A stretch of 64,000 bases of DNA, taken from contig CAJWTS010000003.1 of NCBI GenBank assembly GCA_913047795.1, positions 1 through 64,000 on the forward strand, given 5' to 3'. Positions 749 through 44,760 of this stretch are shown piece after piece. A program made the position numbers and the translations under genes. Positions within the stretch are counted from its first letter, which is position 1; every line of letters starts with the position of its first letter. The notes under the pieces were generated by a model that searched no databases, was not told the origin of the DNA, and worked only from the letters and a program-made list of their open reading frames with translations. The stretch is from an uncultured Verrucomicrobiota bacterium (lineage in GTDB: Bacteria; Verrucomicrobiota; Kiritimatiellia; CAJWTS01).

Positions 749-2374
749 GTGCCGCCTCAAGGGCACCTACTCGTGAAAGATTCCCTCACCCTGGCCGGCG
801 ATCACCTGCTTCGTGTGCTGTCACCTGAACACCATTTTATCCCGTTCTACGAGTTCCATATTAACGAGCGCATGGAAGCCTGGGCGTGGATACGCGGCGC
901 GAGTCACAATATCCCGCGCTGGATCGACGCCATGCTGCGGCTCGAGGCTGCCACGGGTTATGCAATTCCCGCGGAAACCGAAGCCGTCATGATCGAGAAT
1001 CTGCGGTTGATGTTTGATAACCCCGACCATCTCTGCCTTTACCCAATGGACGAAACGGTCCTTCCCGCCGAGGCTGCCGATACCCTGTTGGAATACCACT
1101 CCATGCGTGAAGGGCTTTTGGCACTGACCGCGATGATCGTCCACCGCCAGAGCGAATGGGCCACGGACAAAGCAGTCAAGATGATCGACACGATCGACCG
1201 GATCTCGGACACGGGGCTGGAGCACTGGAATGTGCAATTGCTCGACCGCTGGAAGCGCCTGGATCGACCCGGTGCGCCGATCTCAAGAACGGTACTTGAT
1301 TCGGGCCGCTTTATGGAAGCCGGCATGCACTACGTTCAAGCAACCGGCAATGAGCAGGCGCGGGCCCTGATCGGCCGCTTCGCCGCAATCCACTATGAAC
1401 ACAACACCTGGCCCGGTGGCGCCTACGAGTTGAACTGGGCCAACTGCCACACCCATTCCTATCTCGGTACGCTCAAGGGGCTTCTGCTGTACGGCGCGCT
1501 CAGTGACGAAAAGAAATACGTGGATCGTGTCGCCGAGACCTACAGCATGAGCATACGCACGAACGTCGTTCGCGAGTCAGGCCTCGCCTTCCACGACGGG
1601 GACAAGGAGACCGGTGCAGACCCAGCCGCCGCCGGCGACGCCATGCAAATCGCGCTGTGGCTGGCGCGCTGCGGTTACCCCGAGTTTCTGGATGATGCCC
1701 AACGCATCGTGCGATCACGCTTATTGCCGGCGCAACTGACCGATTGCCCGGAACTCGCGGATGAAGAACTTCCCCGCGACGACGAAGGGACTCCGTTCTT
1801 TATCAACCAGGTGTCCGCGGACAAGCGCCCCGTCTCAAGCGATGTAATCTTTCACCCCAGGGACATGCACCACATCGTCAACGGCGGCTGGGGCATTCAA
1901 CGCGAGGCGCACTGGGCCAGGCAGGCCACGACCGATGTTTCCTGCGCCGTACTGCATTCCCTCTGCGATTTCTATGAACACATTGCCGTCGATACCCATT
2001 CCGGCCTTCGGATCAACTTTCATGTCGACTACGAGGACGAGAGGATCAAGATCGCGGTTCATCGCGGAGACCGGGCGCAGCTTCAGATCGACAATCGAGG
2101 TGGTAATGACCTGGAAATCCGGATTCCAGACTGGGCACCCGGTACCAGCCTCGCGATTAGCATCAATGGTGAATCAGTGGATGCCGGGCCGGTGAACGGA
2201 GTATTGACATGCCGCGCCCCGCAGCAGGTCGAGATTGGCTACGATCTCCCGGAGCGAACCACCGAGGAAACCACCAACGGAGTCACATACACATTCCACT
2301 GGCGCGGCGACCAGGTCCTCGGCATCCGTCCAAACAACACGAACTGGCTACCCCTCTACCCGGATCTGACTTGA
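749..2374 (+). CDS. Six-hairpin glycosidase-like protein, GH127/DUF1680-related
   Basis: A 541-residue soluble protein with no signal peptide. The first ~400 residues are helical and Trp/His-rich (EAWAWIRGASHNIPRW, NWANCHTHSYLGTLKG), as in the (alpha/alpha)6 barrel of beta-L-arabinofuranosidase-type enzymes. After a cysteine-bearing segment (TTDVSCAVLHSLCDFYEHIA) the last ~120 residues form a beta-sandwich with the phrase LEIRIPDWAPGTSLAISING, very typical of the DUF1680/GH127 C-terminal domain. The family hydrolyses terminal arabinofuranosides using a cysteine and acidic residues, but I cannot assign the catalytic set here and the N-terminus is shorter than usual. The start is uncertain: GTG at 749 or GTG at 773, neither with a good ribosome-binding site. 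A role in glycan breakdown is inferred from the family. Confidence 0.6.
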   Translation: MPPQGHLLVKDSLTLAGDHLLRVLSPEHHFIPFYEFHINERMEAWAWIRGASHNIPRWIDAMLRLEAATGYAIPAETEAVMIENLRLMFDNPDHLCLYPMDETVLPAEAADTLLEYHSMREGLLALTAMIVHRQSEWATDKAVKMIDTIDRISDTGLEHWNVQLLDRWKRLDRPGAPISRTVLDSGRFMEAGMHYVQATGNEQARALIGRFAAIHYEHNTWPGGAYELNWANCHTHSYLGTLKGLLLYGALSDEKKYVDRVAETYSMSIRTNVVRESGLAFHDGDKETGADPAAAGDAMQIALWLARCGYPEFLDDAQRIVRSRLLPAQLTDCPELADEELPRDDEGTPFFINQVSADKRPVSSDVIFHPRDMHHIVNGGWGIQREAHWARQATTDVSCAVLHSLCDFYEHIAVDTHSGLRINFHVDYEDERIKIAVHRGDRAQLQIDNRGGNDLEIRIPDWAPGTSLAISINGESVDAGPVNGVLTCRAPQQVEIGYDLPERTTEETTNGVTYTFHWRGDQVLGIRPNNTNWLPLYPDLT

Positions 2375-2632
2375 GCTGCGGGCCATGCTCGCACGGCATG
2401 GCGCAAGCGAAAGCAACTTCTCATTGGCAAGGTGGCGCGATTGGCCGAATATTGACAGGCTTGGATAGAAATGGTTTTTCCTGAGTCCCGGCACTCGATA
2501 GGCCAACCTGTAATTGCAAGGATCGCTTCGGCGACGCCCCCCAGAGTGGTAATGTGTGACTCGGAGCAATTGAGTCGGGAGGAGCGCCAGAATCGGTGAG
2601 GCGAGGGAGCTTCGCACTTCGGCGGGTCAGGC

Positions 2633-3412
2633 ATGACAAAAGACACTCACACCGTTCGCGCAGCCTCCTCCATGGAGTCTGCGCTGTCCCGCTTCGTGAC
2701 CGGAGCGACCATCGTGCTCCTGGTCGTGTATTTGGGGGGGCTGGTCTTGTATCAGCCACTCTACGTGTGGATCTCAGAGTACGAAGGCCCCATCGAAATC
2801 GTCCAGCATGCCGTCCTGTTTGCGGGCCTCCTTCTCTGCATCCGGGCCTCCTGGTGGAACCGTGCGCAGCGTGAAGTGGCGGTCGTCCTCGGTGTGCTCT
2901 CTTTTGGGTTGTTCTTCGCCCTCGGAGAGGAGCTCAGCTGGGGCCAGCACTTCTTCGGATTCCAGACCCCCGCAGCGCTAGAGGCCATCAACTTTCAGAA
3001 GGAGTTCAACCTACATAACCTCAACACGTTGCACCGGTTCCGGCACTTCGTATTCCTGTCCATCGCCATCGTGCCTTTGGTTCTGTGGGGACTGCAACGT
3101 CGACCTCGGTCTCCATGGCTTTCCCGTTGGATCGATCGGCCCTGGCAGCGGATCCCAACGGGGATGATCTTCCCCCTCCTGGTTGCGCTCCCCACGCAGA
3201 TCGCCAAGGAAATCCAGCTTTCAAACAGGTTCGACGCCTACCCAGTTCTTCACATCGACAGTCCCTGTATGCTGCAGGTGCTCTCACGGCTCGAGGAGGT
3301 GGGCGAACTCACAATCTACCTCGCCCTGCTCGTCTACCTCGCGGCGCAGTCGCGCGGCAGTTCGACTTCGGATCGCTTGGACCCGACGAGGCGACCCGCA
3401 TTGAGGCGGTGA
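2633..3412 (+). CDS. Polytopic membrane protein with GEELSWGQ motif
   Basis: A 259-residue integral membrane protein with about six hydrophobic segments (approximately residues 22-45, 58-75, 85-103, 140-158, 180-195, 222-240). The conserved core is GEELSWGQHFFGFQTP followed by EFNLHNLNTLHRFRH. This pairing of an EE-SWGQ motif with an N-L-H-N motif recurs in an uncharacterised bacterial membrane-protein family. The acidic and His residues sit beside membrane segments and could bind a metal, which is inference. The Arg/Pro-rich tail is probably cytoplasmic. It stands alone; the 258-base gap before it contains nothing I recognise. Function unknown. Confidence 0.65.
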   Translation: MTKDTHTVRAASSMESALSRFVTGATIVLLVVYLGGLVLYQPLYVWISEYEGPIEIVQHAVLFAGLLLCIRASWWNRAQREVAVVLGVLSFGLFFALGEELSWGQHFFGFQTPAALEAINFQKEFNLHNLNTLHRFRHFVFLSIAIVPLVLWGLQRRPRSPWLSRWIDRPWQRIPTGMIFPLLVALPTQIAKEIQLSNRFDAYPVLHIDSPCMLQVLSRLEEVGELTIYLALLVYLAAQSRGSSTSDRLDPTRRPALRR

Positions 3413-3820: not shown

Positions 3821-5116
3821 ATGCCAGTTAAGATCCTCGCCACAGGAGATCTTCACATCGGGAGACGCTCCAGCAAGATCCCTGAAAACTTCAGCAGCCC
3901 CGGGGGGCTCTCCTGCGCGTCCATGTGGGCAAAGCTGGTCGATCGCGCGATAGCAGAGGAGGTGGACCTCGTCCTTCTCAGCGGCGATATCGTCGACCAG
4001 GACAACTGCTTCTTCGAGGCCATCGCCCCGCTCGAGAGGGGCCTTAAAAAACTCGATTCCCACGGGATCCAGACCTGCGCCACGGCCGGCAATCACGATG
4101 CGGCTGTCTTCCCCAGGTTGGCAAGGCTGGTTGAGACCGGCAGCTTTCACCTCCTCGGGAAAAAGGGGACATGGGAGTCCATCGACATTTCCCGCGATGG
4201 AAAACCGCTGGCACAAATCCATGGCTGGTCCTTCCCCTCCCGCCATTACAAGGCCAGCCCCCTGATGCAATACGACCTGGAACCGCATCCTGACCTGCCG
4301 ACCATCGGCCTGCTGCACGCGGACCTCGACAATCCCGCCAGCGACTACGCCCCCGTCTCTCTCGACGAGCTGCAGGAAAAGCAGGTCGCCATCTGGGTGC
4401 TGGGACATCAGCACAAACCCCGCCATGAGGAGCGGGCCGGCCGACCCCGGGTGCTCTACCCGGGCTCCCCCCAGGCGATGGACCCGGGCGAGAGCGGCCC
4501 CCACGGCCCCTGGATACTGCAGCTGGAGGGAAGAGACCGTGTGAGCGCAACACAGCTACCGCTATCGAGCGTCCGCTACGACACCTGCAGGGTGAGTGCT
4601 GACGGCTGCGGCGATGCCGAGGAGGTATTCGACGCACTGGTACAGGCGGCCCAGAGCTTTGATGACACCCTGCAGACCCTCCCGGAGCCGCCGCGGCTGG
4701 CCCTGCTGCGCTTCATCATCGAAGGCCGCAGCGCCCTCTCTCAACAGCTCCTCTCTCTTCCTGAATTCGCCGAGGTCTACTCCAGGTCTCTCTGCGGACG
4801 CGACACAGACATTTACGCCGAGAAGCTCCTTGATACGACCCAGCCGGCATTCGACCTCACGCAGCTCGCGGCGAAGAAGGACCCGGTAGGAGCCGTGGCG
4901 GGACTGCTGCTCGACCTGGCGGCTGAGACCCCGACCCCCGAGACCGAGGAGCTGATTGAGAAGTGTCTCGCCAGGACGCAGACCGTTCACCAGTCAAGGA
5001 GCTACTCGGTTATTCGTCCTGATCGCCAGCTCGACCGCGGCGACGCCGTAGAGCTCCTTCGCAAACAGGGCCTTCTCCTGGTAGCGGAGCTCAGGAAGCA
5101 GGAGGCCTCGCTGTGA
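3821..5116 (+). CDS. SbcD/YhaO-like metallophosphoesterase (DNA exonuclease family)
   Basis: A 431-residue calcineurin-like phosphoesterase. All metal-binding motifs are present in order: TGDLHIG, LSGDIVD, AGNHD, GLLHADL and LGHQHKP, followed by YPGSPQAMDPGE, which is typical of the SbcD/Mre11/YhaO branch. The C-terminal ~170 residues form a helical capping region. Start: ATG 3821 has GGAG ten bases upstream and the protein then begins directly with the first beta-strand (VKILATGDLH); the GTG at 3782 would add an unrelated Arg-rich leader. The stop overlaps the start of the next gene (GTGA), so the two are translationally coupled and probably form one complex. In the family, the phosphoesterase is the nuclease and the partner ATPase drives it. 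Arg AGG/AGA codons seem commoner than in neighbouring genes. Confidence 0.85.
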   Translation: MPVKILATGDLHIGRRSSKIPENFSSPGGLSCASMWAKLVDRAIAEEVDLVLLSGDIVDQDNCFFEAIAPLERGLKKLDSHGIQTCATAGNHDAAVFPRLARLVETGSFHLLGKKGTWESIDISRDGKPLAQIHGWSFPSRHYKASPLMQYDLEPHPDLPTIGLLHADLDNPASDYAPVSLDELQEKQVAIWVLGHQHKPRHEERAGRPRVLYPGSPQAMDPGESGPHGPWILQLEGRDRVSATQLPLSSVRYDTCRVSADGCGDAEEVFDALVQAAQSFDDTLQTLPEPPRLALLRFIIEGRSALSQQLLSLPEFAEVYSRSLCGRDTDIYAEKLLDTTQPAFDLTQLAAKKDPVGAVAGLLLDLAAETPTPETEELIEKCLARTQTVHQSRSYSVIRPDRQLDRGDAVELLRKQGLLLVAELRKQEASL

Positions 5117-8100
5117 AGAGCCCCTCACTGAGCTTTACCGACGTCACCATCCGCGAGATGCCGGGTTTCGAGACCGGGGGCTTCCCGATCGAAAATCTCG
5201 CCCCGGGGATAAACATCATCTACGGACCGAACGCCTCGGGCAAGAGCAGCCTCAGCCGGGCGATGGGAGTGCTGCTTCGCGCCGCCGAGGAACACGGCGG
5301 CGACTGCTCGCTGGTAGGCAAGCTGATGGTTGACGGGGACAGTGTCCTGATCGACTACCGGCCCGGAAAGGTCGTCACCCAGCATGAAGGAATGGAGATC
5401 CCGACCCAGAACCTGGCCCCTGACGCAATGGAGGACCGTTACATACTCGCCCTGGCCGACCTCCTCGGCGATAAAGATGAAGCTGACGAGCTGACCAGCA
5501 AAATCCTCAGGGAGGCATCCGGCGGCTATGACCTCGCCGCGGCGGGCGAGGCTGCGGGATTCAGGTCGACTGCGCGGCACAGCGGCACCCCCCAGAAAGA
5601 CTACCAGGCCGCGGCGGAAGAGCTCAAGAAAGCCGACCTGGAGGCTGTGCAGCTTGCGACTGAAGAGCTGGAGCTCCCCGACCTGGAGAAGAAGCTGAAA
5701 AAGGCTGAAGCCGCCGGCAGGGACCTCGAATTGATCGAGAAGGCCGAGAAATACCGTGACGAGTTCAGAAAGGAAGCCGCAGCCGGCGAGGCCCTCAAGG
5801 AATTCCCCGCCGGCATGGACAAACTCCAGGTCGATGCCCCCGAACGCCTTGCAGGCATCGCAAGCGAGATCGAAACCCAGGAAACAGAAAGAAACAACTG
5901 CGAAGAAGCCCAGGTCCAGGCGCAGGCAGTCCTCGATCAGTCGCCCCTGCATCCCACCGGAGGGATCAAGCCCGAGCTTGTCACCGCCCTGCGTGAAAAA
6001 GTCAAAAGCCTTGAAGGCCAGGACCGGGAAAAACCCGCGGCCGCCACAAGGGTAGAAGAGTCCGAGGCGGCTCTCCACGATGCCCTTGTTTCACTGGGAG
6101 GAGGCGACGCGGACACCGAAAAGGTGGAGAGCCTCGACCTGGAGAAGGCCAACAAGCTCCTGGTCTTCGCCCGGAAGGCAGAAGACTTCCAGCGCGACCT
6201 CGCCGCCTTCGACAAGGTCAGGAATTGGCTCCAGACCGGGACGGAACCAGGAAACGTCAACTCACTGCGGGATGGACGCAGGGCCCTGAATAGCTGGCTT
6301 GTTCGGATAGAACTCCCGAGCCCCTCTCCCCGTGCGGAACGAGACAAGCCATCACCGCTCAGGAGCCCGCCGTTCCTGCTTTCGATTGTCATCGCGCTGG
6401 TCTTCCTGATCGCGGGAATCATCAGCGATGCGAAATGGATTCTGGGCCTTCTTCTTCCGCTGCTCCAGGCCGGCTGGATTCTCTGGAGCGCGCGGCAAAA
6501 GCCCGTCCTGACAGACAGCCGCCACGATCCCGAACACAGCAAAGCCGATTATAGAAAGACCGGCCTCGAGGGCCCGGCCGACTGGACTCCCGAGGCTGTG
6601 GACGCGCTGCTGCTGGAGCTGGATACACAGTACGACCAGGCACGCCTGGAGGAAGAGAGAGGTCACCGCTGGAAGGATGAAAGAAGCCAGGGCGATGAGC
6701 TGAAAAAAAGGAAAGAAGATCTTGAGCGCGAAGGTACGCAATGGAAGGAAGAGCTCGGCCTCGACTGGGACCACAACGAGCTTGATATATATTTACGCGT
6801 GGGGCAATTGAGGTTGCTGTTTGAAGCCCGGCAGGCCCTTGCCACAGCAAAAGCCTCGAGAGAAGCCGCGGTGGCCGGCTTTGACGGTCTCCTCGAGGAA
6901 ATCGCCGGAACGGCCCAAGAATACGGCCTCTCTCCTCCAGCCGATTGCGCGCTTGCCCACTCAACAGCCGAAGAGCTCGATACCCTGCGCAGCGCATACG
7001 CCGAAGCACAAGGCGATTTGAAGAGAGCCTGGAGCGACATCAAAAAAACCGACGCTCAAATTAAGCGACGGGAAGAAGAGCGAGCGCAGGTTTTCGAGCT
7101 GGCCGGATTGACCGTTGGCCAGGAAGCCGAGCTCACTACCAGATTAGAAAAACTGGACGACTACCAGGCAAAGAAGAAGGCCCACGATAAGGCGCACACG
7201 CTCCTGGGGTCGGCGCGGGGCGCCCTCAGCGACCACCCGGAGCTGCTGAAGCTGACGGCGGAGGAGCTCGCAGACAGGAGAAATGAGCTCGACCTCGCGG
7301 CGGACAAAAAGGATGACCTCGGAGACGAACGGACACGCCTCCTTCTGCGCATAAAGCAGGCTGCGGACAAGACAGACATAGCCGAAAAGCTGGCCGGGCG
7401 CGAGCGGGCCGCAGATGCCCTGCGGGTCCGGAGAGAAGAGGACCAGGCGGCTGTCACCGGAGACGCGCTGGCCACGTTTGTACGACAGCGGCATCACGAG
7501 GTGGACCAAACCGGCATCTTCTCCAGGGCCAGGAAACTCTTCACAAAATTCACCCGCGGTTATTTCAGGCTGGAAATCGATGACGATATCGAGAACCCAG
7601 GCTTCAGGTGTATCGATACAGCGACCGCCCGAGGGAGAAACATAGAGGAGCTGTCCAGCAACACCAGGATCCAATTGCTCCTGAGCGTGCGAATCGCCTT
7701 CGTCGAGAACCAGGAGCAGGGAGGCAGAAAGATGCCCTTCATCCTCGATGAGGCGCTGGCCATCAGTGACGAGCAGTGGGCTGAAGAGATCATCAAGGCG
7801 GGGATCGACATCTGCTCAGATGGCCGCCAGTTCTTCTACCTTACCGCCCAGCATGACGAGGTGGGCAAGTGGCGCCGGCTGCTCGATAATACCGATCTGG
7901 AGACCAGGGTGATCGACCTCGCGGAGGTGCGCGAGTTCAGCCAAAAAGACCGGGTGCCCCCACAGGTATTCGAGCCGGCCCCGGCCGTGGAGATTCCCGG
8001 CCCGGCCGGGATGAGCCACGCGGCCTACGGCAAGACGCTCGATGTCCCATCGATTGACCAGGAGGCGGCGGTCGGAGGAGTCCGCCTGTGGTACCTGGTC

Positions 8101-8616
8101 GAAGATCCCGAGCGACTCTACGAGCTCCTCAACCATGGGATCAACCTCTGGGGCCAGCTCGAGAACCTGGTCGACAGCAACAACTCGGAGAACCTCACGG
8201 CGGACTCGGCAGTCTATAAGAACGCCGCAGCCTCGGCGCGGGTGCTTGAATCAGCGCTTCGGTACCGCCTCGTCGGCCGGGGTCGCCCGGTGAACCGGCG
8301 AGTGTTGAAGGATTCAAACTACTGCGGAACATTTCTCGAGGCTGTCGTCGAGAAGGCCGAAGAGCTTGACGGAGATGGAGAAGGCCTGGTCAAGGCCCTC
8401 ACCGCCGGAGAGATCAAGGGGTTCCGCAAACAGAAGATTTCAGAGTTGGAGCAATACCTCGAAGAGCATGGATTTATTCCCGTGGAGGAAGAGCTCTCAC
8501 CCGCTGAGATCGACGAGCGCGTGCGGCGAGACGCCTACAAGGACCTCGAGACCGGCCTGCTCAGCGCTGAGCGCCTCAGCTGGCTCATCCAGCAGGTGCT
8601 GCGCGACAATAAATAG
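5113..8616 (+). CDS. SbcC/YhaN-like coiled-coil ATPase with membrane hairpin and extra C-terminal domain
   Basis: 1167 residues. The Walker A GPNASGKSS lies at about residues 38-46, in an AAA_27-type N-terminus (NIIYGPN). Lys/Glu-rich coiled coils run from ~165 to 400 and ~480 to 830, interrupted by two hydrophobic segments at ~420-460 that could insert in the membrane, as in B. subtilis YhaN. The ABC signature-like segment ELSSNTRIQLLLSVRIA (~847) and Walker B MPFILDEALAISD (~874) close the ATPase head. No CxxC zinc hook is seen. Unusually, another ~240 residues follow (from ~930) that do not belong to the ATPase; they are helical and acidic, with no motif I know. The gene starts with GTG inside the stop of the nuclease gene. 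The likely role is DNA end processing or repair at the membrane, or possibly defence; the latter is speculative. Confidence 0.8.
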   Translation: MKSPSLSFTDVTIREMPGFETGGFPIENLAPGINIIYGPNASGKSSLSRAMGVLLRAAEEHGGDCSLVGKLMVDGDSVLIDYRPGKVVTQHEGMEIPTQNLAPDAMEDRYILALADLLGDKDEADELTSKILREASGGYDLAAAGEAAGFRSTARHSGTPQKDYQAAAEELKKADLEAVQLATEELELPDLEKKLKKAEAAGRDLELIEKAEKYRDEFRKEAAAGEALKEFPAGMDKLQVDAPERLAGIASEIETQETERNNCEEAQVQAQAVLDQSPLHPTGGIKPELVTALREKVKSLEGQDREKPAAATRVEESEAALHDALVSLGGGDADTEKVESLDLEKANKLLVFARKAEDFQRDLAAFDKVRNWLQTGTEPGNVNSLRDGRRALNSWLVRIELPSPSPRAERDKPSPLRSPPFLLSIVIALVFLIAGIISDAKWILGLLLPLLQAGWILWSARQKPVLTDSRHDPEHSKADYRKTGLEGPADWTPEAVDALLLELDTQYDQARLEEERGHRWKDERSQGDELKKRKEDLEREGTQWKEELGLDWDHNELDIYLRVGQLRLLFEARQALATAKASREAAVAGFDGLLEEIAGTAQEYGLSPPADCALAHSTAEELDTLRSAYAEAQGDLKRAWSDIKKTDAQIKRREEERAQVFELAGLTVGQEAELTTRLEKLDDYQAKKKAHDKAHTLLGSARGALSDHPELLKLTAEELADRRNELDLAADKKDDLGDERTRLLLRIKQAADKTDIAEKLAGRERAADALRVRREEDQAAVTGDALATFVRQRHHEVDQTGIFSRARKLFTKFTRGYFRLEIDDDIENPGFRCIDTATARGRNIEELSSNTRIQLLLSVRIAFVENQEQGGRKMPFILDEALAISDEQWAEEIIKAGIDICSDGRQFFYLTAQHDEVGKWRRLLDNTDLETRVIDLAEVREFSQKDRVPPQVFEPAPAVEIPGPAGMSHAAYGKTLDVPSIDQEAAVGGVRLWYLVEDPERLYELLNHGINLWGQLENLVDSNNSENLTADSAVYKNAAASARVLESALRYRLVGRGRPVNRRVLKDSNYCGTFLEAVVEKAEELDGDGEGLVKALTAGEIKGFRKQKISELEQYLEEHGFIPVEEELSPAEIDERVRRDAYKDLETGLLSAERLSWLIQQVLRDNK

Positions 8617-8701: not shown

Positions 8702-10129
8702 CTACCCGATCTTGAACTGCGTCTCCGCTTCCCCAAGCACGGTGTCGAGTATGGCGATCGCCCTGTCGATCTCACCGTTCGTGATTGTCAGCGGAGGAAT
8801 CAATTGCAGGCGGTTGTTGTAGTAGCCTCCCCTTTCGAAGAGAAGCCCTTCGCCTACCGCGCGGTCCCTGATAAAACCGGCGGCGTCCATCGCCGGCTCC
8901 TTTGTCTCCCTATCCAGAACCAGCTCGACACCCGTGTAGAGACCGCGGTTATCGATATAGCCGATGATGGCATGCCGCGACTCCAACGTTCTTAGTCCGC
9001 GGACGAGATGCTCACCCGCCTCGTTGACCCGTTCCAGAAAAGCATCAGAGGAGACCGTGTCGAGAACGTAGTTCCCCGCGGCACAGGCCAACACGTTGGC
9101 TGCCTGCGTTGCCACATGCGCACCTGGACCCCACTGCCCGAGAATATCGCCCCGGGCGATAACCGCCGACAGCGGTACGCCGCCGCCCAACGTCTTGGAG
9201 GTGACGATCATGTCCGGCACGATCCCCGAATGCTCGAAGGCCCACAACTTGCCGCTCCTGCCCATGCCCGCCTGTATCTCATCGACAACCAGTAGCATGC
9301 CGAACTTGTCGGCTATGCGCCGAAGCTCCTGCAGATACTCGACCGGTGGCACATAATAGCCCGCCGCACTCTGAAACGGCTCAACCACAATCGCCGCAAC
9401 GTTACACACCCCCGATGTGCCATCGGTATAGGGCGACTCGCTGCTATCCAGCAGGCGTTCAAAGGCCTTGAGCGGATCCAACTCGCGCCCTGGTTCGCTG
9501 CGGTAGCTGTGCGGGAAGTGGAAATGTCCAATCGCCTGGTCCGGTCGTATCGGGTAAAAGTACGACTGCATCGAACCTTTGCCGGTGAGCCCCATGGTGC
9601 CGTACGTAACGCCGTGATAGTCGCCGTATGCCGTAAGGATAAAAGGCTGACCCGTGTAGTATCGGGCCGCCCGCACAGCCAGCTCGATCGCCTCGGACCC
9701 CGTCACGCCAAAAACAACCTTCGCCCCATCATCCATTCTCGAGTGCGCCACCAATTTTTCAGCCAGGCGTATTCGCTCTTCGTGGGGGTAGTCGAAACAA
9801 TGCGTAAGCTTGGCGGCCTGCTGCTGAATGATCGCGGTTAGTTCATCATTACAGTGCCCAAGATTCGAAACGGAATGACCGGCCAGCATATCGACATATT
9901 CCTTGCCGTCGGCATCGTATAGCAGGGCACCCTTGCCGCTTACGAATACGGGCGGAATGTCAAATACGCCGCAACCGGGTCCCCCGACAGACTCCAATTC
10001 AGCCCACTTGCGCGCCAACGCCTTCGTCTTTTCGCCGAACGGAGCTTTCTCGATTCGCTCGTCCAGATTCTCCCTGGTCAGCCTGAGTTGGGCACGTTGC
10101 TTAACGACATTATCGGAAAACTCTCTCAT
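8702..10129 (-). CDS. Class III (acetylornithine/GABA-type) PLP-dependent aminotransferase
   Basis: 475 residues with the class III fold. It contains YVDMLAGHSVSNLGHCN near the N-terminus, VTGSEAIELAVRAARYYTG for the phosphate loop, VVVDEIQAGMGRSGKLWAFEH for the PLP-aspartate region, and SKTLGGGVPLSAVIA carrying the Schiff-base lysine. The family transfers the amino group from omega-amino or similar substrates to 2-oxo acids; the substrate cannot be read from sequence. Start: ATG 10129 is preceded by GGAGGA with six bases of spacing; an upstream in-frame start at 10159 lies across that site and is unlikely. The SDR gene lies 87 bases upstream on the same strand, so they may be cotranscribed. 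Confidence 0.88.
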   Translation of the reverse strand: MREFSDNVVKQRAQLRLTRENLDERIEKAPFGEKTKALARKWAELESVGGPGCGVFDIPPVFVSGKGALLYDADGKEYVDMLAGHSVSNLGHCNDELTAIIQQQAAKLTHCFDYPHEERIRLAEKLVAHSRMDDGAKVVFGVTGSEAIELAVRAARYYTGQPFILTAYGDYHGVTYGTMGLTGKGSMQSYFYPIRPDQAIGHFHFPHSYRSEPGRELDPLKAFERLLDSSESPYTDGTSGVCNVAAIVVEPFQSAAGYYVPPVEYLQELRRIADKFGMLLVVDEIQAGMGRSGKLWAFEHSGIVPDMIVTSKTLGGGVPLSAVIARGDILGQWGPGAHVATQAANVLACAAGNYVLDTVSSDAFLERVNEAGEHLVRGLRTLESRHAIIGYIDNRGLYTGVELVLDRETKEPAMDAAGFIRDRAVGEGLLFERGGYYNNRLQLIPPLTITNGEIDRAIAILDTVLGEAETQFKIG

Positions 10130-10216
10130 CGCGTATCCTCCAGCACGACGTTCCGGCATGTCCTCGCGACATGCCTCCGCAGGTTCACTCCTAAATATTT
10201 CTGGCCACGAAACAAG

Positions 10217-26603: not shown

Positions 26604-27839
26604 TTACAGCGACGTCGTGCCAACCCGGATGAAGTATCGGCTCACACTATTTGTCGGCAGGTCGATCCAGACCCATGACACGTCCGTCGTCGCTTCTACC
26701 AACACGGGAATCCCGGATGTCACGACAGGCACCCAGCCGACCAAATCGCCGGATCCCTCCACGGTGTAGGTTAGACCCGATACACTCTGAAACGAGAAGC
26801 AGAACATATTGCTCGTCACCTCAACGGTTTCAATAACCAGCAGAGGTGTCGGGTTGGGCAGCAGCACCGTATGGTTTGTATCGATAGACTGATGGTTTAG
26901 AAATCGAATGACGTCGTACCAGTAATATCCCTCCTGGTTCAACAGTTCCTGCCCTCCAATGTCGACATGTCCGAACAGGTTGTGACCAGTCTGGGGCGAG
27001 TTCCAGCTGTCATAGACTTTCAAGGTGGACGCGACAGGGAATGGATCATCCTCGGAATCAACCCGGTTGAGTAGCCTCTGATGGGCCGTCGTCATCAAGT
27101 CGACAAGGTTGTTGTGTGTGTTGTCCGGCGGCTGGTCATTCTCGGCAACAGTCATGAAGAACGCGGTACTGCTGGCATCGATCAAGCCAAGGTTGTCCGT
27201 GCTTCCAATCGATCCATTGGCGAGGTATAGGTCCATCGTTGTGGCATTGCTGAACGTGGTCGCCCCGCCATTGATCCACTGCCCGGTGGTGCCGGGGTTA
27301 CTAACCTTCTCGCCCGGCGCTGACGCCTGCATGATCACCCTGTCAATTTTCACATACGGTTTATTGGTGGTGGCCTGTAGTTCAGCGACCCGGATTGTCA
27401 TCAACCCGCCCCGGGAGTACCCGATAAGGGAAATGCCGGGACCGTTGGTGCTGCTCGCCATGGCTCGCCCCTGAAGCATGCCCGGCGTTAAATCCAGCAA
27501 ATCGTCGAGTCCTTCCTGAACCTCTATCAGCGTATCCGTCACCAGGATCCCGGACCTCTTTTTGGCATACGCAATGAACCCCTCCTCGGCCAATCTCCTC
27601 ACGACTTTTTCAAGATCCCCGCCTACCAGAAACCCCAGGCCCCCGTGATTGTAGAGGACGACACGAAACGCGTTGGTGGAACCCGGCTCCAGCGCTGGAA
27701 GGCCAAGGTAGGATCCGTTGCCGTATGGATCACTGACGACCACATCGGCCCGCACGGCACTTGCCACCATCACAACCAGCAGCAACTCAACCAGCCTCGC
27801 CATGGAAAACCTGCCTGAGCAAAGCATATAGATCTTCAT
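26604..27839 (-). CDS. Secreted alpha/beta-hydrolase with C-terminal beta-sandwich
   Basis: 411 residues with a signal peptide (ARLVELLLVVMVASAVRA). The hydrolase domain has VVLYNHGGLGFLVGG for the oxyanion region and LIGYSRGGLMTIRVAE with the nucleophile elbow GYSRGG; the late His is likely in TGHNLFGHVD. It resembles dienelactone-hydrolase/peptidase S9-like enzymes. From ~residue 330 a separate domain (SGLTYTVEGSGDLVGWVPV ... SRYFIRVG) is of a type common at the C-terminus of secreted PVC proteins; a similar ending occurs on the CotH protein at 38992. ATG 27839 has GGAAGGGTGG seven bases upstream; ATG 27803 would start directly at the signal peptide. Confidence 0.75.
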   Translation of the reverse strand: MKIYMLCSGRFSMARLVELLLVVMVASAVRADVVVSDPYGNGSYLGLPALEPGSTNAFRVVLYNHGGLGFLVGGDLEKVVRRLAEEGFIAYAKKRSGILVTDTLIEVQEGLDDLLDLTPGMLQGRAMASSTNGPGISLIGYSRGGLMTIRVAELQATTNKPYVKIDRVIMQASAPGEKVSNPGTTGQWINGGATTFSNATTMDLYLANGSIGSTDNLGLIDASSTAFFMTVAENDQPPDNTHNNLVDLMTTAHQRLLNRVDSEDDPFPVASTLKVYDSWNSPQTGHNLFGHVDIGGQELLNQEGYYWYDVIRFLNHQSIDTNHTVLLPNPTPLLVIETVEVTSNMFCFSFQSVSGLTYTVEGSGDLVGWVPVVTSGIPVLVEATTDVSWVWIDLPTNSVSRYFIRVGTTSL

Positions 27840-38991: not shown

Positions 38992-41900
38992 CTACGGACG
39001 CAGGGGCTTCAAGTCGACTGCGCCGCGATAGAACTCGTTCGTTGTCGGCGTAGCATTGGTATAGACGGTCATTCCGCCCATGCCGAGCACGTCGGTGTGC
39101 TCAGGCACCACATCCCAGGCTGTAGGCATACCGAGTACGGTTCCGCGTTCAAAGCTGTAATGGCGACCACTGTAGGCACGGTAAGACGTGCCGGTCACGG
39201 GGAAGGTCATCATGCCAACCATCGCCGCACCGTTCGAAAAGCTGAGCTCCACGAGATGCAGGTGATCGTCCTCCACCGTCGGATCGGAGCCGAGCAGGAA
39301 TTCCTCCTCGTTGGTCAAGGCGTCCCCGTCAAAATTGTCGCCGGGCAGAACCTGCGCGACATTTGTGAAGCCACCCCCCGAAGCATCGACGATCTGCTGC
39401 TCCCAACTGTCCGGCATATCATCGTCATCCACATCTCCTACGGCGGTGTTCTCCACACCGGGGGTGCCGACGATCTGTCCGCTCTGCCACGATCCAGGCA
39501 GATTGTTGTCGGCCGTCGCGTCCGTCAACTCTAACGCGTAGCCCATTCCGTTCGGCCAGGTGCCGCCGTTGCTATAGGTCACGCTATCGATGACGTTTGT
39601 GCAGAGATCCAACAACACCACGGTCGCGCCCGCATTTGGCAACGTCAGCCTGGATTCTTCGATCACACGCGAGACATGTTCGTTCCGGCTGGTATAGAGC
39701 AACGGCCAATCCCATACGTCGTACCCGGGATAACGCTCAACCATGTTCGTGCCACTCGATAGTTCGAGGTACACGTTCGTCAGCAGCAACTGGGTATCCG
39801 CGACGACAAGATACGACGTCGGCCCGAGCATGGATCCAAACGGCAACCGGTAAGACTCTTCACCCGACTGCAGTGTCCATTGACTCAGGTCGATCGTCTG
39901 CGTACCGGTATTATAGAGCTCCAGGTACTCACCGCCTGACGACGGGTCGTACATGATCTCGTTGATGACGACTGCCGACGGATCATATAACCCCGCCCAG
40001 GCTGCCGCGTCCCTATCTGACCACACACCATTTAAATAGAACTCGCGCCGATGCAGGATAAAATGACGCACTTCCTGAACCTTGTTTGTCAGGCGGTGTA
40101 TCGAGACGTTAATCTGGCTGTACGATGGAATAAGCGAATCTTCCAGATTCTTCAGTATCGGATAGAGGCTGTTGGTTGTCAGCATGGTGTGCACGTGGCG
40201 CCAGAGTGTCTTCTGATGGCGATAGCGATACGGAACGGTGTACGACGCGCCACTCCCCGACTCGGGATAGAACAGGACCACGCCCAGAGGCCTGTTGGTC
40301 GCGCCGTACACAGACGGATGCAACGGCGTCTCATGGTAGGGGTGCAAGTTTGTGTAAGTCGGATCGAACCCGAAATCAACATCCCACGGAAACTGCTCCC
40401 ATCTCCCGTCCGATGCTCGGCGGTGCTGAAACATGTTCCAGCTGAACGCCTGATCACTGTTAGCCGTCAGAGAGAGAAGCGCCATCGAATGCCGGACGGA
40501 CTCGTAGACCAGATTCGTGATCACGACATCATTCTTGGCGGTAAGTACAGCACTACGCAACTGATCGTGCATGAAGTCGTAATTATTGATGGCGGAATCA
40601 CCAGCGATCGGTCGCCGCCCGGTGTAGCCGGCACGCGACAGGTAGCCATCTAGACTGAGGCCGTGATCAACGGCAAAGGCATCGCCGGGCGCCTCGAGCG
40701 ACATCGTAATCGTCGGCGATCCGTTACGCCACATGCAAACGTGCCGAACCCGCGGTGTCGGAAACCCCATCTTCCTCTGAATTGCATAACCCAGCCATTC
40801 ATGAATGATTCGCTTGTACCAGAATGAAGAGTCGTTCTTCCGAACTCGAAAATTAATACCGTCCTCATTCTTGGCGAACCAGAGGTCTACCGGACGCGAG
40901 CGATGGAAGCGCAACGCCACGCTGGAACGATCGTCGGTTTGCGTGGGGTTACCGCGGTGCCGGTAGCGCACATCCGTGTACGATTCAAAATCGGGACCGA
41001 TGACACAGGCTCGGAACGCATGTGGATAGATCACCGGATGGCCATCGGAAAAAATCTGCCAGTTCGGCAGGTTCGACTGTACAGAGGAGCTTTGCACAAG
41101 GAATGCTTCATCCAAACTGGGATCGTCACGATGGGGTGCGCGCACGTGGTTGCCGCTTACATCCGTCGCCTTCACATGGTACCGAACAAAGGTCCAATTG
41201 GTCCAAAACGTCGGCACAGCCGCCGCATACTCACCGTCTCCGGCGACGGTGTCTGGGGCAACGCCGTCATCCAGCATCGTCATGCCATCGTAGTGCGCGT
41301 CCGAAAATTCGTATTCGTTCGTACCAAAAGCCCGGTAGCAAAACGTTACGGACGAGACCAGGTCCGTATCGTTAATCAGCGCGCGCACAACGTTCGCAAC
41401 CCCGGTCGAGACGAGGTTGAACTCGTGATTCAGGTCTTCGATACCGAATGGCGCAAGCGGTCCGGAAACCGAATTTGAAAGACCCGGCGTACCCTCATGC
41501 CCCAGCCATATCGTGTTGCTAGCGTTCCCCGACACAACATGCACGGCGCCACCGATACCTGCCTTTCGAATCTGCATCGAGATGATGTAGCTACCACCCG
41601 CAGTATTTCCGAGCGCAACCTGGCGCACATAGTTGCTGGCCGCACTGCCAAAGGTCACCGACAGCGGAGGCTCCAGAAAGACATCGATCATGCGCGTCAG
41701 GTTGCCGACCAATGCCAGTCCCGCGCTGCCACCTACTCCGACGGCGTCTTCGACGCGCGACTGCGAATGACTGCCGTTCGAGACCCATCCCGTGAATCCA
41801 CTCGCGAAGTCACCGTTACTGATCAATTCCGTACCGGAACCGACCAGTTTCACCGACACATCGTCGACCCAGCACTTGCCCTCGAAGTCCACAAACAGGT

Positions 41901-44760
41901 TCAGCGGCGCGTCGGCGACACCAATCACGCTGGTCCACACCAGGTGCTGCCAGTTGGTAACGGGTGAAGACGCGGACCAGTTACAGGAATTGCTTCCCGT
42001 CGCCAGTGCGTTCAATCGCTCCAACGAAGGCCCATAGCCATCGGCCACGGCCGGCCAGGGCTCATTATCCCCGTAGTCCACGCGATCGATTTCCCGTCCG
42101 AAATTATTGACCAAACGCAACGTCTCCATGCTGTTCCGAAGACTACCCAGCCAATTGCCCACCGTGTTAACGATTCCGTATTTCGCCTGCACGACGGTCT
42201 GCGATGCGCAGAGAACCAGATAACCGCCGCCGGTGATCGAGGTGCCGCCCGGGAGATCGAAATCGACGCCGTCCAGTCGCCAATCGGATAGATCGACGGA
42301 CGCTGTGTGCGGGTTGAATATCTCAACGTAGTCGTACCCCACGTCGTTGGTCTCGACCGGGTGATACATAATTTCGTTGATCACGACATCCGGCGGTACG
42401 CTGCCAACGGCCAGGGAAAACCACTCGGGAACTTCGACACCTTGCAAGCGGACCCGAAAACGAAGAACATGTTCGGTGCCCACGCTCATTGAGGGCGACA
42501 GCGTGGCCGCTACCGAGTTAGCGCTACCCGAACCGGCCGCGGTGGCCTTGACGTTCAGGACGCCGTTGTCGCCTTCGTCGAAGGGAGCCGCCTGACTGGA
42601 CGGCGAATGATTGCCGTTCGCGGACCAATGATCGAGATTTGTGAAAGACCCGTTGCGAACATGTTCGGTATCTGTTGCCGTATCGATTACAGAAATGTCA
42701 TCCACGTACGCCACCCCGGCACCATCGAGATACGCGTAAAACGCCACGGCATGTGTCGTCAAGCCCGTGGTTGCAACACTCACCCATCCAGGCTTCGGTT
42801 GCACCGTGCTCAACAACCCGCCCCCCGAATTGTGCAGCGTGATCGTCGGCGCATCAATGTACCCGATTGACGGCGCGGGCAGCGAGGCGGATTCGCCGCC
42901 AGCGCCGAACGCTTCAAAACGGTAGTAGACCCAGTCCGTCGTGCCGGGCCCGCTCACCACCACAGTGTACCGCTGGTCGCCGCTGACAGCGTCGCCACCG
43001 GTACCGGTATCGTTCATCACGTTCGTCGTGATGCTGCCGCTGACGGCCACCATCGTTACGACCTGTGTCGGCAGCGTGGAGGCTACGATCGCGACCGTCA
43101 CCGTCAGCATATTGCCGGGAGCGGGCGTCGCAGGCGTTACGATTGGATCGATCAATCCCCCAAGCGGCGCGTCTCCGGGCGTGCCGCCCGGCGGACCGGC
43201 AAACCAGTTGGAGGCTGTATTGCCATGGTTCGTCGTCACCAGGCGTTCGAGCGAGGGGCCATTCCCGTCCGCTGCCGATGGCCAGGGGATATCGTCTAGG
43301 TAGTCGACCTGTTCGACCAGAATGTATGGCACGAGATTCGTCTCAGGAGTACCGGGCTTGAACAGGCGTACAGACTCGCCCGCATTGTTTAGTCTACCGG
43401 TCCACGCCCCGAGAACGGGGACACCGGGATCGATACCGTGCGTGGCACGGAAGAGCGCCGTGTTCGTGGTACCCACCAGCAGCAGTCGCGCACCAGAGGC
43501 AAGGGATATATTGGTGGGCAGGTTGTATTCGACGGCTTCCCCGACCCGCCAGGTGTTGGACGGGAAGGCAGCGTCAAACAGGTCGACGGCGCCGGTGGTG
43601 ACGTTCAGCAATTCCAGATACTCGTCGTCCGAGTTGTCATTGGGAGGATGATACATGATCTCGCTGATGACAATGGGGCCCACCAGCGGCAGCGCGTTGA
43701 TTGCACCGGTACCCGTGCGGAATTGTGCAACGGAAACCGGATTAGCCACCCCAAAGCTGTGTGCCGACATCGTCACGAGCGTACCGCTTCCATCGGGATA
43801 CCGACCGAAGGACACACCGTTGTCCGAAGCTCCGAAGGTTGTAAAATCAACAAAGCGCGTCAGGTTCCCGCCTCCATCCGCTGCGGTCAGATAAACGTCG
43901 TCCCCGAGTTCGCTCAATGCGAACGACGTGGGCCCACTGCCACCGGAGCCGAAGTCCTCCTCGTAAAACACGTGATATCCGTTGGCCGGCAAGGTGGTTC
44001 CATTCGGAATCTCGAACTTTTTGCGATCCCCCGGGGCGTCGCTCAAATACCAGCCGCTGATGTCGATCGGTGATCCTGTCAAATTCTTCAACTCGATCGC
44101 GTCCTCTAGCGGCGGGTCAGTGTGCGCGATGACCTCATTGATCGCGATGTCGCCCTGCGCGCAGACACCGGTTGCGCCCGGTGTGCCCAGGTAGACGTCA
44201 GAGGAACACCAGTTCGCGGGCGCATCGGCGTCACCCTGTGGATCGATCAAGGTCAACGAACTACCGTAACCATCCGGCCGAACGGGCCAACCATTCTCGT
44301 CGTCGTAGTCGACGCTATGCAGCGTCGAGTTCCCCGAATCCTTCAGCGTGACCTTCTCGCCCCCGTTTCCGAGGCTACCGGTATAAAACCCGTCAGCGAT
44401 TGCGACGCCGGGATAGCGATTGGTGAAGGCCGTTCGATTCTTGACCACAACAAGGTAGGCCCCTTGCGCCAGAATGGTGGAATTGGTGAAGGTGTACGTG
44501 ATGCCGGATGAAAAGTACGCATCAGTCAGATCCACCGAACCGACACCATCATTGAAGAGCTCGACGAACTCATATTGGTTCCCATCGACCGGGGTTTGGC
44601 CGTCAACGGGGTTGTACATGATCTCATTGATAACAACGGAATTCGCGAATCCGCCGCCAGGCAGCAGGAACACACATACCCATGCCAGCGCACAAAGCCG
44701 AAACACACCGTGCCCAAATTGAAAAATCCGGGTATTTTTCACCATTTCAGTTCCCATCAC
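38992..44760 (-). CDS. Giant secreted lamin-tail-domain/CotH-kinase protein
   Basis: 1922 residues with signal peptide (FRLCALAWVCVFLLPGGGFA). Lamin-tail domains open with V-I-NEIMY-P motifs at about residues 41, 205 (NEVIAHTD), 367, 790 and 1595. Between 530 and 780 and from 930 to 1250 lie beta-rich linker domains. A CotH domain spans ~1260-1560, with YRHRGNPTQ, KNDSSFWYKR and FPWDVDFGFDP, the W-D-x-D stretch being the conserved metal-site region of CotH kinases. The C-terminus has a Ca-binding-like stretch (DVDDDDMPDSWEQ, NFDGDALTNEEEF) and a final beta-sandwich ending EFYRGAVDL. Spore-coat CotH phosphorylates secreted proteins; whether this one does is inference. It is the last gene of the VTC/DUF4956/HlyD run. 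Start GTG 44760, ATG 44757 or ATG 44745 (GGAAGG just upstream). Confidence 0.85.
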   Translation of the reverse strand: MMGTEMVKNTRIFQFGHGVFRLCALAWVCVFLLPGGGFANSVVINEIMYNPVDGQTPVDGNQYEFVELFNDGVGSVDLTDAYFSSGITYTFTNSTILAQGAYLVVVKNRTAFTNRYPGVAIADGFYTGSLGNGGEKVTLKDSGNSTLHSVDYDDENGWPVRPDGYGSSLTLIDPQGDADAPANWCSSDVYLGTPGATGVCAQGDIAINEVIAHTDPPLEDAIELKNLTGSPIDISGWYLSDAPGDRKKFEIPNGTTLPANGYHVFYEEDFGSGGSGPTSFALSELGDDVYLTAADGGGNLTRFVDFTTFGASDNGVSFGRYPDGSGTLVTMSAHSFGVANPVSVAQFRTGTGAINALPLVGPIVISEIMYHPPNDNSDDEYLELLNVTTGAVDLFDAAFPSNTWRVGEAVEYNLPTNISLASGARLLLVGTTNTALFRATHGIDPGVPVLGAWTGRLNNAGESVRLFKPGTPETNLVPYILVEQVDYLDDIPWPSAADGNGPSLERLVTTNHGNTASNWFAGPPGGTPGDAPLGGLIDPIVTPATPAPGNMLTVTVAIVASTLPTQVVTMVAVSGSITTNVMNDTGTGGDAVSGDQRYTVVVSGPGTTDWVYYRFEAFGAGGESASLPAPSIGYIDAPTITLHNSGGGLLSTVQPKPGWVSVATTGLTTHAVAFYAYLDGAGVAYVDDISVIDTATDTEHVRNGSFTNLDHWSANGNHSPSSQAAPFDEGDNGVLNVKATAAGSGSANSVAATLSPSMSVGTEHVLRFRVRLQGVEVPEWFSLAVGSVPPDVVINEIMYHPVETNDVGYDYVEIFNPHTASVDLSDWRLDGVDFDLPGGTSITGGGYLVLCASQTVVQAKYGIVNTVGNWLGSLRNSMETLRLVNNFGREIDRVDYGDNEPWPAVADGYGPSLERLNALATGSNSCNWSASSPVTNWQHLVWTSVIGVADAPLNLFVDFEGKCWVDDVSVKLVGSGTELISNGDFASGFTGWVSNGSHSQSRVEDAVGVGGSAGLALVGNLTRMIDVFLEPPLSVTFGSAASNYVRQVALGNTAGGSYIISMQIRKAGIGGAVHVVSGNASNTIWLGHEGTPGLSNSVSGPLAPFGIEDLNHEFNLVSTGVANVVRALINDTDLVSSVTFCYRAFGTNEYEFSDAHYDGMTMLDDGVAPDTVAGDGEYAAAVPTFWTNWTFVRYHVKATDVSGNHVRAPHRDDPSLDEAFLVQSSSVQSNLPNWQIFSDGHPVIYPHAFRACVIGPDFESYTDVRYRHRGNPTQTDDRSSVALRFHRSRPVDLWFAKNEDGINFRVRKNDSSFWYKRIIHEWLGYAIQRKMGFPTPRVRHVCMWRNGSPTITMSLEAPGDAFAVDHGLSLDGYLSRAGYTGRRPIAGDSAINNYDFMHDQLRSAVLTAKNDVVITNLVYESVRHSMALLSLTANSDQAFSWNMFQHRRASDGRWEQFPWDVDFGFDPTYTNLHPYHETPLHPSVYGATNRPLGVVLFYPESGSGASYTVPYRYRHQKTLWRHVHTMLTTNSLYPILKNLEDSLIPSYSQINVSIHRLTNKVQEVRHFILHRREFYLNGVWSDRDAAAWAGLYDPSAVVINEIMYDPSSGGEYLELYNTGTQTIDLSQWTLQSGEESYRLPFGSMLGPTSYLVVADTQLLLTNVYLELSSGTNMVERYPGYDVWDWPLLYTSRNEHVSRVIEESRLTLPNAGATVVLLDLCTNVIDSVTYSNGGTWPNGMGYALELTDATADNNLPGSWQSGQIVGTPGVENTAVGDVDDDDMPDSWEQQIVDASGGGFTNVAQVLPGDNFDGDALTNEEEFLLGSDPTVEDDHLHLVELSFSNGAAMVGMMTFPVTGTSYRAYSGRHYSFERGTVLGMPTAWDVVPEHTDVLGMGGMTVYTNATPTTNEFYRGAVDLKPLRP

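Follow-up and report, generated by a model that had tools for sequence, protein, structure and literature searches.

The window analysed here is a 64,000-nucleotide stretch of a contig from an uncultured Verrucomicrobiota bacterium (CAJWTS010000003.1). It carries two adjoining genes on the same strand that encode a metallophosphoesterase and a large Rad50-like ATPase (Table 1). The GTG start codon of the ATPase gene shares four bases (GTGA) with the stop codon of the nuclease gene. Among the relatives described below, a partner nuclease lies directly upstream of the ATPase in nearly all loci with enough upstream sequence; the exception is G080 (locus L063), where none of the open reading frames listed is an upstream nuclease.

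Table 1. Genes and protein features at the locus, with positions in the window.
Feature	Position	Strand	Details
Metallophosphoesterase (Mre11/SbcD/YhaO-like nuclease)	3821..5116	+	431 aa
Rad50/SbcC/YhaN-like ATPase	5113..8616	+	1167 aa, GTG start
ATPase head, N-terminal half with Walker A	5113..5620	+	residues ~1-169; alignment
Hydrophobic hairpin midway along the coiled coil, at the place of the SbcC/Rad50 zinc hook	6358..6492	+	residues ~416-460; hydropathy, AF2 model
ATPase head, C-terminal half (signature, Walker B, H-loop region)	7480..7932	+	residues ~790-940; alignment
C-terminal extension (linker, then all-helical domain, ~969-1163)	7933..8613	+	residues ~941-1167
Class-III aminotransferase	8702..10159	-	PF00202, E 4.3e-88

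The nuclease matches the Pfam Metallophos family (PF00149, E = 1.3e-12) and the sbcd model TIGR00619 (E = 4.7e-13), the latter at 49.5 bits and thus under the model cut-off of 77.65. Eight residues (D10, H12, D56, N91, H92, H166, H196 and H198) are invariant in all 19 aligned partner nucleases, and by these catalytic-type Asp, His and Asn residues the sequence predicts an intact enzyme.

The ATPase has the motifs of its class, with Walker A (GPNASGKSS), the signature (LSSNTRIQ), Walker B (LDE) and an H-loop region. Pfam returned generic AAA models only, including AAA_21 within residues 33–96 (E = 3.7e-06). The AAA_27 model (PF13514), which we take to represent the YhaO/YhaN type of pair, scored 17.0 bits on the window protein, below its curated cut-off of 22, and matched 8/16 family members at E ≤ 0.01 (best 4.7e-05); no curated SbcC model matched the ATPase at E ≤ 1. 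With a profile built from the 16 family members, Rad50 structures ranked first (3qku, E = 3e-12), aligning to profile positions 778–876. The AlphaFold2 (AF2) model of the ATPase superposed on Pyrococcus furiosus Rad50 with a Z-score of 20.6 over 268 residues (3.4 Å), spanning model residues 6–941. Judged by its motifs and predicted fold, the protein has an intact Rad50-type head. A preliminary description, made from the DNA letters, had proposed a YhaO/YhaN- or SbcCD-like nuclease-ATPase pair with complete phosphoesterase motifs, Walker A and B sites and GTGA coupling; it was right on each of these points, as well as on the gene coordinates.

It had also pointed to a membrane hairpin inside the coiled coil, and this too is present. 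The ATPase has a hydrophobic segment at residues 420–438, and the AF2 model places two 19-residue helices there (419–437 and 442–460), with low confidence (pLDDT ~50). The segment occurs in 28 of 31 aligned rows of extended proteins, the other three being fragments that lack the region, and a CxxC zinc hook was found in 0/32 aligned rows. All five short YhaN-like proteins of family f38 have the same hairpin. From its hydropathy, insertion of the hairpin into the membrane is likely. We found no open-access paper that joins zinc hook, transmembrane and YhaN, and no open-access title on a membrane-anchored SbcC.

Beyond the head, the ATPase continues into a further domain. The preliminary description had placed its start near residue 930 and its length at 240 residues; the domain itself is real, while its onset is closer to residue 941 and its length is about 226 residues. 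In an alignment with the five short forms and G171, a further short form, this onset coincides with the end of the YhaN-like proteins, right after the H-loop. Predicted alone, the extension folds into 11 helices with a mean pLDDT of 87.6, consistent with a separate helical domain. The window's own extension has no Pfam match, and a PDB sequence search with it gave nothing convincing (best E = 0.038 over 30 residues). Foldseek recovered no fold at E ≤ 0.001 from either the PDB or the viral structures of BFVD, and VIA-align found no PDB fold reaching Z = 5. Compared by hhalign, the two halves of the extension showed no similarity (probability 0.5%). Across 29 extension rows (G018, G222 and G171 set aside), L1002, G1055, S1068 and L1096 are each kept in at least 97%.

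The extension had been suggested to add target recognition. This did not hold up: 27 of 29 relatives have an acidic version of the domain, which makes recognition of a DNA target unlikely, and only four positions in the 29 rows reach 75% or more Lys/Arg. Residues ~122–189 of the extension model gave weak VIA-align matches to SARM1 (Z = 3.6), polymerase beta (3.5) and topoisomerase V (2.7), which are presumably of the SAM or helix-hairpin-helix type, and the motif LLxxGIxxWGQL is reminiscent of those folds. These Z-scores lie within the noise of the tool, and together with the acidity and the dissimilar halves they led us to reject a DNA-recognition domain as a claim and to keep it as a lead. 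The best reading of the acidic domain is an uncharacterised partner or regulatory domain.

These features set the pair beside two known systems. With SbcCD/Mre11-Rad50 it shares a nuclease with a Rad50-type ATPase, the Rad50 head fold, a gene order like that of Bacillus subtilis and, at some loci, AddAB-like neighbours; it differs in having the hydrophobic hairpin in place of a zinc hook and an added C-terminal domain, and the SbcD and SbcC models score below cut-off and not at all, respectively. With YhaO/YhaN it shares adjoining, overlapping genes with the nuclease upstream, a similar signature and Walker B region, and the hairpin in the middle of the coil, a trait that we deduced for YhaO/YhaN from the five short relatives. 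The YhaN-like family, however, stops after the H-loop, whereas the window ATPase continues, and the AAA_27 score falls short. Because it has no zinc hook, scores under the cut-offs and carries a domain that YhaN-like proteins lack, the pair is fully neither SbcCD nor YhaO/YhaN: it is a Mre11-Rad50 variant that resembles both and fails some tests of each. No functional study of a YhaN/YhaO pair was apparent from the titles and opening lines of abstracts in the open-access literature.

The extension is no oddity of a single protein; it is the hallmark of a scattered subfamily. Searched alone across 288 genomes of the window's phylum, the extension profile found 10 places, each the end of an ATPase frame of 1109–1197 residues (one of them, G018, broken); a stand-alone copy was not found in these 288 genomes. 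Whole-protein matches occurred in 16/288 genomes, including the 10 with the extension. The domain is far from universal in the phylum, and other YhaN-like proteins there do without it. In the phylum of the closest relative, a planctomycete (L024), about 28 of 392 genomes contain a match covering part of the extension, by a hand count of matches extending to query residue 1000 or beyond. A wider scan of contigs, using a two-sequence profile and two short seed patterns only, gave a lower bound of at least 15 loci, labelled Planctomycetota, Chloroflexi-type, Latescibacterota, Bacteroidetes, Elusimicrobia and Verrucomicrobia. In G018, the ATPase (L005:8015-11338) is broken within the extension: its first frame has 980 residues, and a second, separate frame of 93 residues holds part of the remainder.

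The subfamily extends to the archaea. Nine haloarchaeal plasmid records match the ATPase at 29–33% identity, and in seven of them the match takes in 80% or more of the query, extension included. There the genes overlap in the same order, as an 'SMC family ATPase' and a 'DNA repair exonuclease' (for example, NZ_CP118159.1); these pairs differ in being plasmid-borne and generically annotated, some of them beside replication or helicase-nuclease genes. Five plasmids from five genera (L049, L050, L051, L054 and L056) carry near-identical ATPases with end branches of 0.02–0.1, a likeness that points to recent spread between haloarchaeal genera. No relative was found among 50,697 phage records.

Codon usage sets the pair apart from its contig. 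The arginine codons AGA and AGG (AGR) make up 10/28 arginine codons in the nuclease and 28/89 in the ATPase, or 38/117 together, compared with 154/2006 in the other genes of the contig (p = 1.3e-13). We rejected a coiled-coil effect as the cause: in this genome, smc has 4/113, and the counts for four further long-coil matches are 12/138, 4/52, 8/103 and 2/78. Within the ATPase, AGR codons account for 28/72 in the body and 0/17 in the extension (p = 0.001). This contrast might hint at separate histories, but L024 also has the extension, at 64% identity and with 2/12 AGR codons. The neighbouring aminotransferase gene is also AGR-rich (10/32, p = 1.2e-4), and its best relative in the class is 35% identical; it may have been acquired together with the pair, and is no part of the nuclease-ATPase machine. 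The AGR-rich block is bordered by genes of normal AGR content, at 749–3412 and beyond 10.2 kb. The foreign codon style that the preliminary description had noted is thus borne out for the pair, with two amendments: the extension itself does not have it, and the next gene does. The highest AGR fraction on the contig (7/16) belongs to an open reading frame at 26604–27839 (411 residues) with no Pfam match.

Phylogeny agrees with the codon signal. The window ATPase is 67% identical to that of L024, from a Planctomycetaceae MAG, and 22–38% identical to the ATPases of the other 14 scanned loci. In our trees, which leave out L025 (nearly identical to L032) and H9 (partial), the window and L024 fall inside a seven-row planctomycete/Latescibacterota group with support of 100/99. 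G171, G080 and G222, which are short forms or long branches, were kept in the quick tree and left out of the careful one. An AU test rejects joining the window and L024 to five class-mates (p = 1.75e-8), and the gene is absent from the one other genome of the window's family that we examined. No outstanding pair of flanking repeats marks mobile-element ends around 3.3–11.3 kb, and the window contains no tRNA gene. On account of the AGR excess and the nesting with a planctomycete homologue, horizontal transfer of the pair, as first suspected from its codons, is well supported over vertical inheritance, and the planctomycete copy is its closest relative. The pattern that the preliminary description had named as speaking against it, an extension shared by every YhaN-type protein of the phylum together with vertical descent and ordinary codon use, did not appear.

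The same observations could arise from a contaminating planctomycete contig or a chimeric assembly, given that the pair sits 3.8 kb from the left end of its contig and that L024 is itself on a planctomycete-labelled contig, at its edge and internally disrupted. We consider such an artefact very improbable. Both flanks of the block are normal in AGR content, and the one argS that we found in this genome is on the same contig as the pair, which makes contamination unlikely; its product is 56–63% identical to argS of 17/18 other genomes of the class, the remaining one being a 47% fragment. In L024, a nuclease fragment (residues 277–303) at L024:1-110 is followed almost directly by the ATPase from residue ~217; either an internal stretch of the pair is missing there or the assembly is wrong at the contig edge.

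We compared 31 loci (30 bacterial and haloarchaeal loci plus the window; L025 and L057, which lack flank or a whole gene, were set aside) for UvrD and PD-(D/E)XK neighbours, by BLAST at E ≤ 1e-4 and annotation, a search that may miss distant homologues. AddAB-like UvrD and PD-(D/E)XK genes adjoin the pair at four loci from three distant lineages: G142, a Chloroflexia MAG, a Halapricum plasmid and a Halorussus plasmid. In G142, the genes run on one strand as PD-(D/E)XK, UvrD, nuclease and ATPase. Pfam confirmed both neighbours in G142 and the Chloroflexia MAG, and those of the two plasmids are AddAB-like by annotation and BLAST. The other 27 loci have no AddAB neighbour, many of them with short flanks. 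Against a chance expectation that we estimate at 0.2–0.5 loci, four in 31 has a probability of 6e-5 to 2e-3. PMC1533848 places addB, addA, sbcD and sbcC of B. subtilis in one putative operon.

In the window's genome, an AddB-like gene lies on a separate contig, and we found no convincing SbcC there. Across the phylum, 60 of 288 genomes match the SbcC model TIGR00618 at E < 1e-20 (hand count), and none of the 10 genomes with an extended ATPase does, an outcome expected by chance 9% of the time. At the loci of class-mates, the neighbours appear by eye to be housekeeping genes (acetate kinase/phosphotransacetylase, rod-shape, and carA/PhoH/YbeY-like genes). Some haloarchaeal copies adjoin plasmid replication genes, whose products are a primase in one case and carry an NrS-1 polymerase-type domain in another. 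Further along the window, the gene at 38992–44760 encodes a protein of 1922 residues, in which five stretches match lamin-tail domains and one region is CotH-like.

SMC-type ATPases also occur in defence systems. The pair could be one of these, directed at phages or plasmids as Lamassu and other SMC-like systems are; the ATPase would then be the sensor and the nuclease the effector. Like LmuB, the ATPase has an SMC/Rad50-like head and a coiled coil, with weak profile and fold similarity: among PADLOC models it matches AriA best (E = 1.3e-07, over 63 residues), followed by LmuB (E = 2e-05). The patchy distribution, the transfer and the haloarchaeal plasmid copies, one of them near a CRISPR-associated ring nuclease gene, would suit such a role, as would a short, extension-less pair in G171 that adjoins genes for an AbiEii toxin and a ResIII helicase. 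In contrast to Lamassu, the ATPase is accompanied by a metallophosphoesterase, and no defence island surrounds it in the window or at the bacterial loci. The nuclease and the extension gave no PADLOC match. The scan covered 79 neighbours: 5 in the window and 74 of the 104 open reading frames at bacterial loci, chosen by eye so as to drop spurious frames, and none of the 56 open reading frames at haloarchaeal loci. No PADLOC family occurred in more than three of these neighbours; the 25 families listed, of 79 that matched, are all generic UvrD-type helicases, with three members. The preliminary description had proposed to look for relatives in defence islands, and among the window and bacterial neighbours scanned none appeared. 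Given neighbours that are ordinary or AddAB-like, the seemingly housekeeping surroundings in class-mates and the lack of a relative in the phage records, we regard a defence role as unlikely.

The short G171 pair, whose family is shared with extended members, lies at L064:3522-13598 together with AbiEii, a ResIII/DEAD helicase and what by eye is a probable HsdM. The locus looks like one for defence and may be a separate system. For the haloarchaeal copies, several of which stand beside replication or hypothetical genes on plasmids, a part in plasmid maintenance or in conflict between elements is possible.

We favour, by a modest margin over even odds, a DNA-end processing complex similar to SbcCD, of the membrane-hairpin (YhaO/YhaN-like) type, whose C-terminal domain couples it to partners. 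The Rad50 fold and profile matches, the invariant nuclease motifs and the upstream partner nuclease argue for this reading, as do the AddAB-like neighbours, the B. subtilis operon and the absence of SbcC-model matches from the 10 extended genomes. The 27 loci with no AddAB neighbour speak against it, as do the low AF2 confidence at the hairpin, the scores under the SbcD and AAA_27 cut-offs, the lack of an SbcC model match and the plasmid setting of several haloarchaeal copies. In such a complex, two ATPase heads would clamp DNA ends in an ATP-dependent manner and gate a nuclease dimer. The coiled coils would end in the inner membrane, substituting for zinc-hook dimerisation and keeping the work held at the membrane. 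The acidic domain, at the base of the head, would serve a protein–protein or autoregulatory function and link the complex with AddAB-type helicase-nucleases or other partners. What the membrane and the extension do, and the tie to AddAB, we infer from the features above. In the window's genome, the pair probably takes over the work of SbcCD.

A plainer account would have a YhaO/YhaN-type housekeeping or stress nuclease, with a tail that merely stabilises the protein and engages no partner, and an incidental AddAB neighbourhood. The short YhaN-like relatives do manage with the hairpin and a nuclease partner gene and without an extension (5/5), but the extension is retained from several bacterial phyla to haloarchaea, keeps its four near-invariant residues and is predicted with confidence as a domain of its own, and we think this account rather improbable. 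A more specific version of the end-processing complex, which we consider unlikely, has the extension as a fused partner subunit, in a role like that of Nbs1 or a kleisin at other Rad50/SMC heads; through it, AddAB-type or replication enzymes would dock onto a Mre11-Rad50-like machine anchored in the membrane.

Mre11-Rad50 machines are usually described as dimerised through a zinc hook. If the fused-subunit reading is true, the pair would represent a further Mre11-Rad50 architecture, with a membrane hairpin for the zinc hook and a built-in adaptor for the third subunit, in a two-gene cassette that moves between bacteria and haloarchaeal plasmids. Overall, the pair has the look of a DNA-repair device gained by horizontal transfer, and not of a phage-defence system, and it belongs to a little-studied type of nuclease-ATPase that appears to be membrane-anchored. 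A widespread subgroup with a coil seemingly ending in the membrane, and a conserved built-in domain with no known fold relative, would raise the question of how these organisms process DNA ends, and at which place in the cell; since the pair is short and self-contained and has cultured haloarchaeal carriers, that question is testable.
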